Below, piece by piece: positions 8,262-17,313 of a DNA stretch of 35,497 nucleotides (the stretch's first letter is position 1; each line of letters starts with the position of its first letter). A program made the position numbers and the translations under genes. Source of the stretch: a virus; IMG/VR virus record IMGVR_UViG_3300030109_001822, positions 1 through 35,497 of that record, one strand, 5' to 3'. Under the pieces are notes generated by a model that made no database searches, had not been told where the DNA came from, and worked only from the letters and a program-made list of their open reading frames with translations.

Positions 8262-8645
8262 TTATTTTGACAATATGTTATCGAATTCTTTTATTGCTTG
8301 ACGACACATTCTAAAAATTTGGCTGAATTGTGGGTCATTATCACCCTTTTCTAACTCTTGAACTATGCCATCACGCAATCTTTCCATGCGTTCACGCTCA
8401 AAAGTCGTGAGTTTAGAAAACTCTTCTTCACTAAACTCACTCTGTACTAAATATTTCATCGCATACTCCATTGCTTTCGATACAGGCGTTCTACCACTCT
8501 CATAAAAATAATACATTCTCGGACTTACACCTAGTATTTTCGCTATTTCAGAAGCACTTTTATTCATCTTGATACGATGCTCTCTTAAAGTGTCAAATGT
8601 CCAAGAACTGTATTCTCTTTTTTTGCCATCAAATTTGCTTTTCAT
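8262..8645 (-). CDS. XRE-type helix-turn-helix regulator
   Basis: The 127-aa protein has a Cro/CI-type helix-turn-helix in the N-terminal half. RTEIG-like helices are seen as SASEIAKILGVSPRMYYFYESGRTPVSKAM (about residues 30-60), where the YESG-x-x-P ending is typical of XRE proteins. The C-terminal half is helical and charged (EEEFSKLTTFERERMERL), likely for dimerisation. It has no LexA-like peptidase region, so it would not self-cleave. It is coupled by ATGA overlap to the 79-aa gene, and their shared promoter holds one of the GAAC palindromes found at five other promoters. This makes it the best candidate repressor for that regulon, with autoregulation. That link is inference. Confidence 0.85.
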   Translation of the reverse strand: MKSKFDGKKREYSSWTFDTLREHRIKMNKSASEIAKILGVSPRMYYFYESGRTPVSKAMEYAMKYLVQSEFSEEEFSKLTTFERERMERLRDGIVQELEKGDNDPQFSQIFRMCRQAIKEFDNILSK

Positions 8646-8881
8646 GCAGTAATCTCTTCTAGCACACCAATGCTTATCAAATCTTCGGCAAATTCTTTTC
8701 TAGAACTGTAACGAATGTCCATATGATGCATGGAATTAAAGATACTTGCCTGCATCTTCATGAATTCAACGTCATTTGGATCAGCCATCATGTTAGTTTC
8801 TCTCATAACATCCACGACTTGCGTAGGAGACTCAGCTTCGAAAGTCTTACCATCTCCTGTTTTTAGTTTAAATTTTCTCAT
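8642..8881 (-). CDS. 79-aa protein upstream of the XRE gene
   Basis: I start at the ATG at 8881 (MRKFKLKTGDGKTFEAESP), preceded by a strong GGAGG. The longer upstream reading would run through the promoter. The N-terminal ~30 residues resemble a short beta-hairpin, as in proteins that begin with a lysine-rich 'K-F-K-L-K-T-x-D-G' strand. The rest is helical (VVDVMRETNMMADP, EFMKMQASIFNSM, SRKEFAEDLISIGVLEEI). No family is recognised. It is the first gene of a two-gene operon with the XRE regulator and overlaps it by 4 bases (ATGA). Such small partners are sometimes modulators of the regulator, but nothing here shows that directly. Confidence 0.7.
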   Translation of the reverse strand: MRKFKLKTGDGKTFEAESPTQVVDVMRETNMMADPNDVEFMKMQASIFNSMHHMDIRYSSRKEFAEDLISIGVLEEITA

Positions 8882-9113: not shown

Positions 9114-9129
9114 GTGAACAATTGTTCGG
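9114..9129. promoter_or_regulatory. Perfect GAACAATTGTTC palindrome (class B site)
   Basis: The 16-mer GTGAACAATTGTTCGG contains a perfect 12-bp palindrome. No convincing promoter overlaps it on either strand. It lies in the ~210 bp without genes between the XRE-operon promoter and the amidoligase terminator. The rest of that stretch is A/T tracts (for example T7-A6-T6 near 8943..8961) with no reading frame I trust. Confidence 0.5.
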
Positions 9130-10553: not shown

Positions 10554-10635
10554 ATTACATTACTTAAGACGTGTATGCATATACATACATATACATATTA
10601 TAATTCTACTTATACTTATAATGATTACTGTAAAA

Positions 10636-10700
10636 GTCCGAAGTCCGAACACCGAACACCGAACACCGAATACCGAATACCGAAGGCCGAAGGCCGAACA
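10636..10700. repeat. Tandem array of nine 7-bp CCGAANN units
   Basis: CCGAA starts at 10638, 10645, 10652, 10659, 10666, 10673, 10680, 10687 and 10694, a strict 7-bp period. The two variable bases run GT, CA, CA, CA, TA, TA, GG, GG, CA, so neighbouring units are often identical, as expected of recent slippage. A second, broken array lies at 11484..11552. Confidence 0.92.
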
Positions 10701-10745: not shown

Positions 10746-11231
10746 TTAACAATAACCAGACTGAGGACAATCATAAAAATCTATTTCATTTCTTGCGACC
10801 TCTTCAAGTGCAAACCAAGAAAGAGCATTTAAAATTTGATCTTTACATTCGCCAGTATAATCATAAAAGGCATCAGCTACATCTGAGGGTTTTAAATTCA
10901 TTTCTCTTAAACAATGAAAACCACAAACCATTTTTAACCAATCTGTATCAAAGCACTCTGCTTGTTTTTTTAGTAAGTCTAATATATCTCTTTTATTTTC
11001 GTTAACAAATTTAACTGTTTCTGTGTAATAAATAAACCCACTAAATCCACCATCTGCACCATTGTTGACAATATCTCTTAATACTTGCAATGCATCGTCA
11101 AAATTATCTCCTCCACCATGATAAGTATTAGTTAATCCTAGTTGGCTTATAACTGAATTTTTTAAACTTGTTTTAACAATCTTTTCTAATTCTTCTACAT
11201 TTGATAAATTATTTAACGCTGTTGTAGTCAC
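10746..11231 (-). CDS. 161-aa phage protein with GGFSGFIYYTET motif (unknown)
   Basis: I recognise only a type. The central NGADGGFSGFIYYTETVKF (about residues 57-75), followed by an alpha-helical C-terminal half, resembles a widespread uncharacterised phage family whose name I cannot confirm. The rest is mostly helical (EELEKIVKTSLKNSVISQLG, KRDILDLLKKQAECF, ILNALSWFALEEVARNEIDFY). There are four Cys, the last in the C-terminal DCPQSGYC. No catalytic signature is clear. The gene has its own promoter with operator (11264..11292) and its own terminator (10700..10725), so it behaves as an independent 'moron'. It lies between the small terminase and the amidoligase. Its function is unknown; co-regulation with the amidoligase is suggested by the operator. 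Confidence 0.75.
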   Translation of the reverse strand: MTTTALNNLSNVEELEKIVKTSLKNSVISQLGLTNTYHGGGDNFDDALQVLRDIVNNGADGGFSGFIYYTETVKFVNENKRDILDLLKKQAECFDTDWLKMVCGFHCLREMNLKPSDVADAFYDYTGECKDQILNALSWFALEEVARNEIDFYDCPQSGYC

Positions 11232-11292: not shown

Positions 11293-11349
11293 CAACAAAA
11301 AACATTTTTTTTTATTTTTTTTTGGCCTGAAATATTACAGGCGTACAGG

Positions 11350-11365
11350 CCAAACAATTGTTCGG
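11350..11365. promoter_or_regulatory. Class B site CCAAACAATTGTTCGG
   Basis: One mismatch from the ideal palindrome CCGAACAATTGTTCGG. It lies 16 bases before the + strand promoter at 11381, so a bound protein could also affect that promoter. Confidence 0.45.
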
Positions 11366-11380
11366 ACTTTTAAACAGGCG

Positions 11381-11410
11381 TTGACAGGTCGAACAATTGT
11401 ATGATATTTT
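11381..11410 (+). promoter_or_regulatory. Plus-strand promoter with operator, possible small-RNA promoter
   Basis: TTGACA (11381..11386), 18 bases, then TATTTT (11405..11410) preceded by TG at 11402..11403, an extended -10. The spacer contains GAACAATTGT (11391..11400). No protein gene follows, but a terminator does at 11448. Confidence 0.55.
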
Positions 11411-11416
11411 TAATTA

Positions 11417-11477
11417 TTCTCAATATTTCCTCCGAGATAATAAACTTGGCCCAGTTAATTTAACTGGGTCTTTTTTT
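11417..11477 (+). ncRNA. Candidate ~60-nt regulatory RNA
   Basis: The segment is bounded by a good + strand promoter and a strong + strand terminator, with no open frame between. The single-stranded 5' part has UUUCCUCCGAG (about 11425-11435), which is complementary to GGAGG ribosome binding sites such as that of the 79-aa gene at 8881. The 3' part is the terminator hairpin. This is the layout of a small base-pairing RNA. It is inferred from sequence only, and the start point is approximate. Confidence 0.4.
11448..11477 (+). terminator. Plus-strand intrinsic terminator
   Basis: GGCCCAGTT pairs with AACTGGGTC (one G-U) around a 5-base A/T loop, followed by seven T (11471..11477). There is no + strand protein gene upstream for several kilobases, which is the reason to suspect a small RNA. 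Confidence 0.8.
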
Positions 11478-11483
11478 CCTGAA

Positions 11484-11555
11484 CTCCGAAGTCCGAACAA
11501 TTCTTCGGCATATAAGTCCGAAGTCCGAAGTCCGATCAGTCCGAACACCGAACAA
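11484..11555. repeat. Second, interrupted CCGAANN array
   Basis: CCGAA (or CCGAT) starts at 11486, 11493, 11518, 11525, 11532, 11541 and 11548, mostly 7 bp apart. One segment forms CCGAACAATTCTTCGG (11493..11508), an inverted repeat with 5-bp arms. Confidence 0.85.
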
Positions 11556-11639
11556 GTTATTCCACGTATTTCTGTTATCTGTACGCAAAAGTCTCCGTCA
11601 GACACCGAAAATGGTGTTATTTCCCAATATTTCCCATCA

Positions 11640-12152
11640 TTAGCTATTATCGACTATCTCGATCTTAGCGTCCTCAGAGGGCGTTACGTTTCTCATCCTA
11701 CCTTGAGCCAGTTTTTTAAATTCTTCCAGTTTCTCAAGGATTTGATCTCGATTAAGCGTATTCATATCCTCGTGCATTATGTGCTGTTTGTTGACAAGTA
11801 GTCCTGTGGCCTTCAATCTTAGCTCTTCTGCACGTATTGCTTCCCCTATTTTTCCATTCTCCCACGCTTCATTACGCATCTTCAAAAGATCACGCACCGA
11901 CTTCTCAACAGTGACACCGAACCTCGCATTAGCTTCCATACGCATCTCCTGATATCGCTCCTGAATAACAGGATTACGCAAAAGCCGAACAGCATCGACT
12001 GTCGGATTACTATACCCAGACTCTCGTGCTGAAGCTGTTTGTGTCATATCTCGATACATAAAATTATCCAAAAACCTCTGCTGTTTGGCCGTTAATCTCT
12101 TCCAACCAGCTTTAGACTGCTCCTTTGTTAATGTTTCACCAACTTTGCTCAT
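11640..12152 (-). CDS. terS: Terminase small subunit
   Basis: The 170-aa protein matches small terminases of the Terminase_2 type, which recognise the packaging site and hand DNA to TerL. LTAKQQRFLDNFMYRDMTQTASARESGY (about 20-48) is the family's N-terminal helix-turn-helix; LLRNPVIQERYQEM (about 57-70) is the helix that follows it. Residues ~75-125 form the helical oligomerisation core (VEKSVRDLLKMRNEAWENGKIGEAIRAEELRLKATGLL), and the tail is charged. Unusually it is separated from terL by about 6.8 kb of accessory and virion genes. A dense repeat cluster just upstream (12268-12481) may be its binding site. Confidence in the family is high. Confidence 0.88.
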   Translation of the reverse strand: MSKVGETLTKEQSKAGWKRLTAKQQRFLDNFMYRDMTQTASARESGYSNPTVDAVRLLRNPVIQERYQEMRMEANARFGVTVEKSVRDLLKMRNEAWENGKIGEAIRAEELRLKATGLLVNKQHIMHEDMNTLNRDQILEKLEEFKKLAQGRMRNVTPSEDAKIEIVDNS

Positions 12153-15963: not shown

Positions 15964-15992
15964 ATTATATGAACTATGTTACACAATGTCAA
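15964..15992 (-). promoter_or_regulatory. Consensus promoter with GAAC palindrome, papain-like gene
   Basis: On the - strand TTGACA (15992..15987), 17 bases, TATAAT (15969..15964): a perfect sigma70 consensus. The spacer contains GAACTATGTTAC (15971..15982). So strong a promoter would need tight repression, consistent with an operator. Confidence 0.92.
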
Positions 15993-16015
15993 TAGAAAAA
16001 AAATATTTTTTTTAC

Positions 16016-16044
16016 TTGACTATTATGAACTATAGTTCTATATA
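16016..16044 (+). promoter_or_regulatory. Promoter with perfect GAACTATAGTTC operator, cyclotransferase gene
   Basis: TTGACT (16016..16021), 17 bases, TATATA (16039..16044). The last 12 bases of the spacer are the perfect palindrome GAACTATAGTTC (16027..16038), touching the -10 box. It faces the promoter at 15964..15992. Confidence 0.9.
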
Positions 16045-16078
16045 CAAAATATATTTAATTAATTATAAGGAACAACAA

Positions 16079-16561
16079 ATGACTAAATTATATTTTGCTT
16101 ATGGTTCAAATCTCAATTTTGAACAGATGTCGATGAGATGTCCAAATGCTGTATCTCTTGGTCCTTTATACATTCCAAGTTGGAAACTTGTATTTAGGGG
16201 TGTTGCTGATATTGAACAATCAGATAACAATGATGATCTGTTACCTGTCGGTGTTTGGAGAATAACAGAACAATGTGAACAATCTCTTGATATTTATGAG
16301 GGTGTTAATCCTAATTCTAGTAATGACGGATTATATAAGAAGATAGAAGTTTGTGGTATGATGACCTATAAAATGAATAGTGATGGTTATTCTCCACCTT
16401 CATCTTATTACTTTAATGGTATACTTGATGGCTATCAAAACTTTGGCCTTAACAGTAGCCATTTATATGATGCTCTTGGTTGGTCTTATTACAATAAGTT
16501 AAGTAAGGCTGAACGATTAGGATATGGTAGATACAGTGATTACGTTAAGGAGATTGTATAA
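16079..16561 (+). CDS. Gamma-glutamylcyclotransferase-like (AIG2/GGCT) protein
   Basis: The 160-aa protein opens MTKLYFAYGSNL; YGSNL (residues 8-12) is the substrate-binding loop of the GGCT/AIG2 family. The presumed catalytic Glu is E74 in SLDIYEGVN, followed by LYKKIEV, as in the family. The tail (GWSYYNKLSKAERLGYGRYSDYVKEI) is typical of a short helical end. Such enzymes cyclise gamma-glutamyl groups to 5-oxoproline, releasing an amine, and so can undo gamma-glutamyl links made by ligases. AAGG is 8 bases before the ATG. It is the first gene of a + strand pair (TAATG overlap with the 31-aa gene) under a perfect operator. It is a natural counterpart of the amidoligase at 9210..10403; the pairing is inference. 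Confidence 0.85.
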   Translation: MTKLYFAYGSNLNFEQMSMRCPNAVSLGPLYIPSWKLVFRGVADIEQSDNNDDLLPVGVWRITEQCEQSLDIYEGVNPNSSNDGLYKKIEVCGMMTYKMNSDGYSPPSSYYFNGILDGYQNFGLNSSHLYDALGWSYYNKLSKAERLGYGRYSDYVKEIV

Positions 16562-16656
16562 TGAAAATATTAAATAAAATAACAAACATTGGATTAATCA
16601 TTATTCCAATATGGATGATAGCTCTAATAGTAATTCAATCAATTATATTATATTAA
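16561..16656 (+). CDS. 31-aa single-span membrane microprotein
   Basis: MKILNKITNIGLIIIPIWMI, then ALIVIQSIILY: a short basic start and one hydrophobic span. An AAGGAG is placed exactly 8 bases before the ATG, and the start overlaps the cyclotransferase stop (TAATG), so translation is likely. It ends 9 bp into the end of the convergent Mom-like gene. With one span and a positive N-terminus it would insert in the inner membrane. It could be a pinholin-like lysis protein, an accessory of the cyclotransferase, or a small toxin. No homologue is known to me. Confidence 0.65.
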   Translation: MKILNKITNIGLIIIPIWMIALIVIQSIILY

Positions 16657-17313
16657 ATTCATTTGAGTTGATATTGTATCTTCTATTTTATAATTAATTG
16701 TTTCTGTTTTTGGATACGGATAAATAGGATAATTTAAATTATTCATAAAAATTTTCTTTTGTCTTTTGTCGCCTAGAAAATATACATATCTATGTTTTCT
16801 AGGCCGATTAACAACTTCAAATTTATCTTTATCATTTACTCTTTGTTCTAATGTATACTTTTCACATATTGTTTTAGAGTGCATATTAGAATTTTTTATT
16901 CTCCATTCAGTTCTTTTGTCCGATAATCCTGTATAAATAAAATTGGTTGCTTGATATATGTATCCTGTGTGGTTCATACTTGTATCGGCATAAGAAACAA
17001 CTATTTGTGGCTTTGGCAATAACTTTAAACTATTGCCTACAAGATAAGATGCATTATTTTTATCGTTATCAATTAAACATAACCGATTAAGTTCGATTAC
17101 ATTATATTTAAATTGTTCGCCACATATACCGATACACAATGATGAACTTGGTGGAGAGCCATATGTTATGATCCCTATTAAATCACTATGTGAATACAAT
17201 CCGAAAGAAAAAGATATTGAAGGAATTCTTTTAGCATAATGTAATCTTTTTAACCATTGATACGTTTCTTCTTTTTTAATCTCTAACACTCTTTTATTTT
17301 TAAAATCAGTCAT
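16648..17313 (-). CDS. mom: Mom-family DNA (adenine) modification enzyme
   Basis: The 221-aa protein agrees along most of its length with phage proteins annotated as Mom-family adenine methylcarbamoylation enzymes: LHYAKRIPSISFSFGLYS, GIITYGSPPSSSLCIGICG, VIELNRLCLIDND, ASYLVGNSLKLLPKPQIVVSYADTSMNHTGYIYQATNF, IYTGLSDKRTEW and RPRKHRYVYFLGDKRQKK. In phage Mu, Mom changes adenine to N6-carbamoylmethyladenine and protects DNA from host restriction enzymes; the fold is GNAT-like. It is the last gene of the replication operon and overlaps the Cys-rich gene by 4 bp (ATGA). Mu's own translational regulator Com is a small zinc-finger protein; a small CxxC protein lies directly upstream here (17310..17501), which is suggestive. 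Confidence 0.85.
   Translation of the reverse strand: MTDFKNKRVLEIKKEETYQWLKRLHYAKRIPSISFSFGLYSHSDLIGIITYGSPPSSSLCIGICGEQFKYNVIELNRLCLIDNDKNNASYLVGNSLKLLPKPQIVVSYADTSMNHTGYIYQATNFIYTGLSDKRTEWRIKNSNMHSKTICEKYTLEQRVNDKDKFEVVNRPRKHRYVYFLGDKRQKKIFMNNLNYPIYPYPKTETINYKIEDTISTQMNLI

Follow-up and report, generated by a model that had tools for sequence, protein, structure and literature searches.

Several described small RNAs block the initiation regions of mRNAs. The csRNAs of streptococci have strong promoters, hairpins followed by a terminator and unpaired anti-Shine-Dalgarno (anti-SD) stretches accompanied by an anti-start triplet (CAU in 53 of 61 cases); their sequences and genomic locations vary, and a block of initiation was inferred for them by their authors (PMC3091779). 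Among phages, the c4 RNA of P1/P7 has loops whose pairing surrounds a ribosome binding site (PMC12197685). SmelA075 and SmelA099 possess 3-4 hairpins with CCUCCUCCC loops (PMC3927594). Little of the non-coding RNA of uncultured marine phages has been charted so far. Here we describe a predicted RNA that can be recognised by its sequence, is found repeatedly in a phage group related to HTVC023P and has no Rfam family.

The window, that is the whole stretch of 35,497 nt that was analysed (IMG/VR record IMGVR_UViG_3300030109_001822), has no DNA similarity to isolated phages. The TerL and portal proteins of the record are closest to those of the Pelagibacter phages HTVC023P/HTVC027P and of the phages 023Pt_psg01 and DSL-LC04 (43-62% identity), and its source is a marine podovirus-like phage of a group related to the HTVC023P-type pelagiphages. 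A search of bacterial genomes with TerS for a prophage or host found none, and the TerL matches to two Verrucomicrobiota MAG contigs and one Planctomycetota MAG (62%), which lack the palindrome described below, were too weak for a host call. Small RNAs were not found mentioned in papers on HTVC023P-type phages. Elsewhere in the window there is a Mom-like DNA modification protein (16648-17313, - strand; nearest isolates Listeria phages, 43% identity) and a promoter that matches the sigma-70 consensus at 12 of 12 positions (TTGACA-17-TATAAT; 15964-15992, - strand). The latter overlaps the beginning of the ORF for a gamma-glutamyl cyclotransferase-like protein on the + strand (15986-16561). The features of the locus of interest are as follows:

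10746-11231, - strand: DUF7222 gene, the other flank of the cassette
11344-11369, no strand assigned: left arm of the inverted repeat (26 nt, imperfect) that brackets the gene; contains the palindrome CAAACAATTGTTCG
11381-11410, + strand: sigma-70-type promoter, TTGACA at 11381-11386 and extended -10 element TGATATTTT with TATTTT at 11405-11410
11390-11403, no strand assigned: degenerate palindrome CGAACAATTGTATG in the promoter spacer, an overlap that is not conserved
11413-11441, + strand: 5' hairpin that exposes the core (AUUAU-U-CUC / GAG-AUAAU)
11416-11477, + strand: predicted small RNA of ~62 nt (likely start; 11413-11418 possible)
11421-11423, + strand: anti-start triplet CAA, 5 nt 5' of CCUC, able to pair with UUG
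11426-11433, + strand: anti-SD core UUUCCUCC, unpaired in a loop
11448-11477, + strand: intrinsic terminator with a 10-bp stem, 3-nt loop and 7 T
11489-11514, no strand assigned: right arm of the inverted repeat (CGAACAATTCTTCG)
11640-12152, - strand: terS, encoding the small subunit of terminase; conserved neighbour that served to find relatives

The promoter was found as the original prediction had it. TTGACA and TATTTT are 18 nt apart, and a TG stands at 11402-11403; an alternative -10 element, GATATT at 11403-11408, lies at a 16-nt spacer from TTGACA. The terminator had been described as a 9-bp hairpin with seven T; the T run is there (11471-11477), and the stem at 11448-11470 is slightly longer, at 10 bp of which 5 are G-C. 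That no protein frame or + strand gene is near holds for the flanking genes, which are both on the - strand, but a mechanical + strand ORF (11397-11801, TTG start) does cross the site, beginning inside the promoter and running antisense to terS. The element has a promoter of its own and an intrinsic terminator, with the stretch between them free of genes. The predicted RNA folds into a 5' hairpin and the terminator (MFE -17.3, z -4.3 against shuffles), and the fold prediction places UUUCCUCC within a 12-nt loop closed by a helix of 8 bp with one bulge. The lower pairs of this hairpin need a transcription start at or before ~11414, and a start at A11416 retains five pairs.

A strict promoter-terminator cassette of this kind occurs once in the 35.5-kb window and in none of 150 shuffled windows. 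It might nonetheless be fortuitous or purely transcriptional, that is a promoter and terminator which serve as an insulator or interference site and have no RNA function. The region is rich in terminators and palindromes, and single promoter-like sites in the window are no commoner than chance (53 against 71 in shuffles), both of which would suit such an element; against it, the 6-8 nt core is the sole conserved part of the transcribed body while its flanks diverge and its orientation flips, and we regard this explanation as highly improbable.

The conservation was established on relatives gathered by TerS scans, which yielded 41 loci at first and then 80. The conservation set comprised the 24 loci, the window's own sequence included, whose TerS has an identity of 79% or more and whose sequence extends for 600 nt or more past terS (L078, whose sequence ends at 248 nt, was left out). 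In 23 of the 24, TTCCTC with a downstream T run lies 3' of terS, no more than about 430 nt from its end, and a same-strand TTGAC promoter accompanies it in 21 of those 23; the promoter is not clear in L066/L003 and L068/L005, and the one exception, L085, has a TTCCTC copy elsewhere, 4 kb away. Around the element the sequence is otherwise divergent between relatives, and nearly all retain an exact TTGACA followed at 16-18 nt by a TA.. hexamer. As the family had first been noticed by its core, cassettes were picked again by promoter and terminator only, as a control for bias: TTCCTC was recovered in 9 of 11 clusters, and no 6-mer rose above 6 in 500 shuffled sets. The pattern TTGACA-N16-18-TA-N10-40-TTTCCTCC had exactly one match in each of 9 of 20 whole records, and its reversed form had no match in the same 20. 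An alignment of 16 RNAs has a mean column identity of 50%, with UUCCUC and the U-tail as the invariant columns. The terminator stem varies in sequence among groups and is always present as a stem; (C)AUUCUC/GAGAAU(G) closes the 5' hairpin at the same position in L004, L008, L009 and L013, and several relatives contain a further C-rich element (UUUCCUCAC or CCUCGCUUA), located either ahead of the terminator loop or within it. The core is a seed region both conserved and predicted to be accessible. The 5'-hairpin pattern, searched across all viral contigs, gave outside the terS group chance matches only, with neither promoter nor terminator, and inspection by eye of Pelagibacter phages and DSL-LC04 for analogous cassettes turned up only RBS or coding matches. 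Taken together, the comparison of related phages strongly supports the original proposal of a small-RNA gene with an anti-SD stretch, and 11381-11477 is best described as a single cassette encoding a conserved predicted RNA.

The cassette occurs in two orientations. In the window, L067, L069, L071-L075 and L042 it runs counter to terS, and the others have it in the same direction as terS. At least 2 changes of orientation are needed on the terS tree, one of them forced by well-supported branches. This bears on the possibility that the opposite strand is the functional one, with GGAGGAAA-N5-AUG as the ribosome site for a gene or short leader peptide expressed together with terS. The SD and start codon are indeed correctly spaced on the - strand in the window, L003, L004, L008, L009, L015 and L020, but the frame they would open is not conserved, ranging from 4 to ~34 codons in the window-type relatives, which speaks against a leader peptide; moreover, whichever way the cassette points, its promoter and T run lie on the strand of the RNA, and the supposed ribosome site is antisense to terS transcription in the flipped phages. 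We give a coding role of that strand very little credence.

Recombination between the arms of the inverted repeat could explain the flips. The arms were found in the six regions checked. In the 14 terS-linked modules that were measured, the palindrome stands on both sides of the RNA gene, about -63 to -131 and +57 to +111 nt away from the core. With up to 2 mismatches allowed, CGAACAATTGT has 46 matches where 15 are expected, and the palindrome CGAACAATTGTTCG is thus over-represented. The original prediction had noted that the promoter spacer contains GAACAATTGT, which is correct (11391-11400, + strand), and had proposed from this that the RNA belongs to the same control circuit; that step is unproven, and the overlap is not conserved: only the window has the palindrome within the spacer, whereas it abuts the -35 box in L067/L069 and elsewhere just flanks the gene. 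CGAACAATTGTTCG palindromes are located at 9115, 10539, 11351, 11390 and 11494 of the window, are intergenic 3' of terS in most relatives and form arrays beside terS in several, at ~50-70 nt spacing. They also fit a GAAC-N4-GTTC (LexA-type) box, and are possible TerS/packaging or repressor sites. Tandem 7-nt repeats (CCGAACA/CCGAAGT) are likewise intergenic, at 10631-10700 and 11511-11554 of the window.

Of 13 representative RNAs, 7 have a CAU 4-8 nt 5' of the core, where shuffled flanks give a mean of 1.6 (P 0.0002, without tree correction), and CAU, CAA and CAC together account for 9 of the 13 (P 0.0006 against shuffled flanks, not corrected for relatedness); the triplet is absent in some relatives (L005, L007, L021). 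Since CAU/CAA stands 5' of an anti-SD core, the predicted RNA would be antisense to a whole initiation region, i.e. SD, spacer and start codon. The anatomy of the RNA thereby predicts a mechanism. A sigma-70-type promoter would give rise to a ~60-nt RNA ending at the intrinsic terminator, which would expose UUUCCUCC and the anti-start triplet, either within a loop or in an unpaired 5' region; UUUCCUCC would pair with GGAGGAAA, in trans, within translation initiation regions, and such pairing of SD and start codon would keep ribosomes off the bound mRNAs. We consider it fairly probable that the cassette encodes a stand-alone phage small RNA that masks the SD and start codon in this manner, with host mRNAs as its likely targets.

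As to those targets, the original prediction had supposed pairing with the GGAGG ribosome sites of the phage itself. This is possible at 5 bp only: GGAGGAAA, the complement that the conserved 8-mer requires, is found nowhere else in the window than opposite the predicted RNA. Scoring of cognate RNA duplexes against all phage initiation regions recovered no phage target common to all carriers. Across 34 ortholog groups, the best partner had a mean rank of 0.15 in 5 genomes, where the 5% point of the null was 0.18, and cognate RNA-phage pairing barely exceeded the non-cognate. Further, by our own rough gene calls, none of the 29 carrier genes with an upstream GGAGG has AA directly after this motif, whereas 9 of 21 do so in Pelagibacter phages (Fisher P 1e-4). 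Because GGAGGAA is missing from the carrier genes and no phage partner is consistently good, the phage's own mRNAs are doubtful targets, their GGAGG sites being possible weak ones, and host mRNAs appear the better guess. Avoidance of GGAGGAA as a trait specific to carriers was rejected, as non-carrier relatives (same rough calls) have 3 of 30 (P 0.24, not significant), and its absence may merely be a habit of the clade.

A real RNA could instead control one or a few phage genes, as c4 RNA of P1/P7 does on ant mRNA (PMC12197685). The candidate target is the small gene at 8645-8881 (GGAGGUAUUAUGAGAA) ahead of an HTH regulator gene: in the window and G009, UUCUCA..CCUCC of the RNA makes a bipartite match to GGAGG..AUGAGAA, and in most relatives the small gene has a strong SD and is followed by the conserved HTH gene. 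In G001, G010 and other carriers, on the other hand, the site is GAGG or lacks AUGAGA, and no partner gene among the ortholog groups stood clearly above the null. We therefore judge control of so few phage genes rather unlikely. The gene pair itself (8262-8881, - strand), made up of an unknown protein of 79 aa and then an HTH_3 protein (8262-8645), is conserved in a large part of the terS clade, with identities as low as ~27%.

Returning to the masking of initiation regions in trans, the mRNAs bound would be host mRNAs with GGAGGAA-type sites rather than those with the GGAGGU-type sites of the phage. If so, one would expect selective repression of a GGAGGAAAUAAUAUG site relative to GGAGGUAAUAUG, and the phage would have a cheap RNA route to host take-over. 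A bolder version, which we hold to be distinctly unlikely, is a broad host shut-off RNA that masks host GGAGGAA initiation regions while phage GGAGGU sites escape, encoded in a palindrome-bracketed cassette able to invert and to change its pairing sequence between phages.

Other candidate RNAs were observed in the relatives. The other terS subclade (L024, L025, L027, L029, L113, L117, L133) has a different cassette in the same place, on the opposite strand and 450-590 nt 3' of terS, with TTGACA-17-TATATA, AUUUCCUUUG or AUCCUUUGUUU preceded by CAU, and then a terminator; it may encode an equivalent RNA with anti-AAAGGA specificity. A third conserved cassette lies 2-6 kb from terS (L089 +1103, L090 +1447, L097 +944, L099 +33, L123 +4227, L129 +3212). 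It comprises a strong promoter, a 5' hairpin whose sequence changes with pairing retained in most, CCUUUUGUUUUAAA(A)AUGUUUGU and a terminator, and is probably another small RNA; three of its loci, scanned against Rfam, gave no match. The contigs L184 (3720, - strand) and L186 (4040, - strand), which have no terS in the sequence covered, contain TTGACA..CAUAAUUUUCCUCC with a GC-rich terminator after it, and may represent this kind of RNA in a further group of phages. The manA RNA (RF01745) scores above gathering in L069 (4559-4732), L013 (3506-3677) and L004 (3559-3732), and was not found in the window.

How then does the predicted RNA relate to the known ones? With the csRNAs it shares the unpaired anti-SD and the anti-start codon, which in the window is CAA; the csRNAs are bacterial and controlled by CiaR, whereas the present RNA is phage-borne. 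The CiaR box is TTTAAG-N5-TTTAAG. This motif has no match at 11340-11410, even with up to 2 mismatches allowed. The predicted RNA differs from c4 RNA of P1/P7 in having no Rfam match, and the target scans gave a candidate phage gene but no ant-like target with conserved pairing. With SmelA075/SmelA099 and mmgR/suhB (RF00519), all alphaproteobacterial, the likeness is an anti-SD in a loop or single strand; unlike SmelA075/SmelA099 with their multiple hairpins, the present RNA has one UUUCCUCC, one 5' hairpin and one terminator, some relatives adding CCUCGC/CCUCAC to the single UUUCCUCC. The whole window yielded no Rfam match at gathering score; the RF00519 model does align at full length (UUUCCUCC..ACUU..terminator), at 22.2 bits, below its gathering score of 41 (20.9 bits in L010), and by this alignment mmgR/suhB appears the nearest in kind among Rfam families. 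Hence, judged by analogy, the predicted RNA resembles the known RNAs that block initiation regions, while standing outside every family tested.
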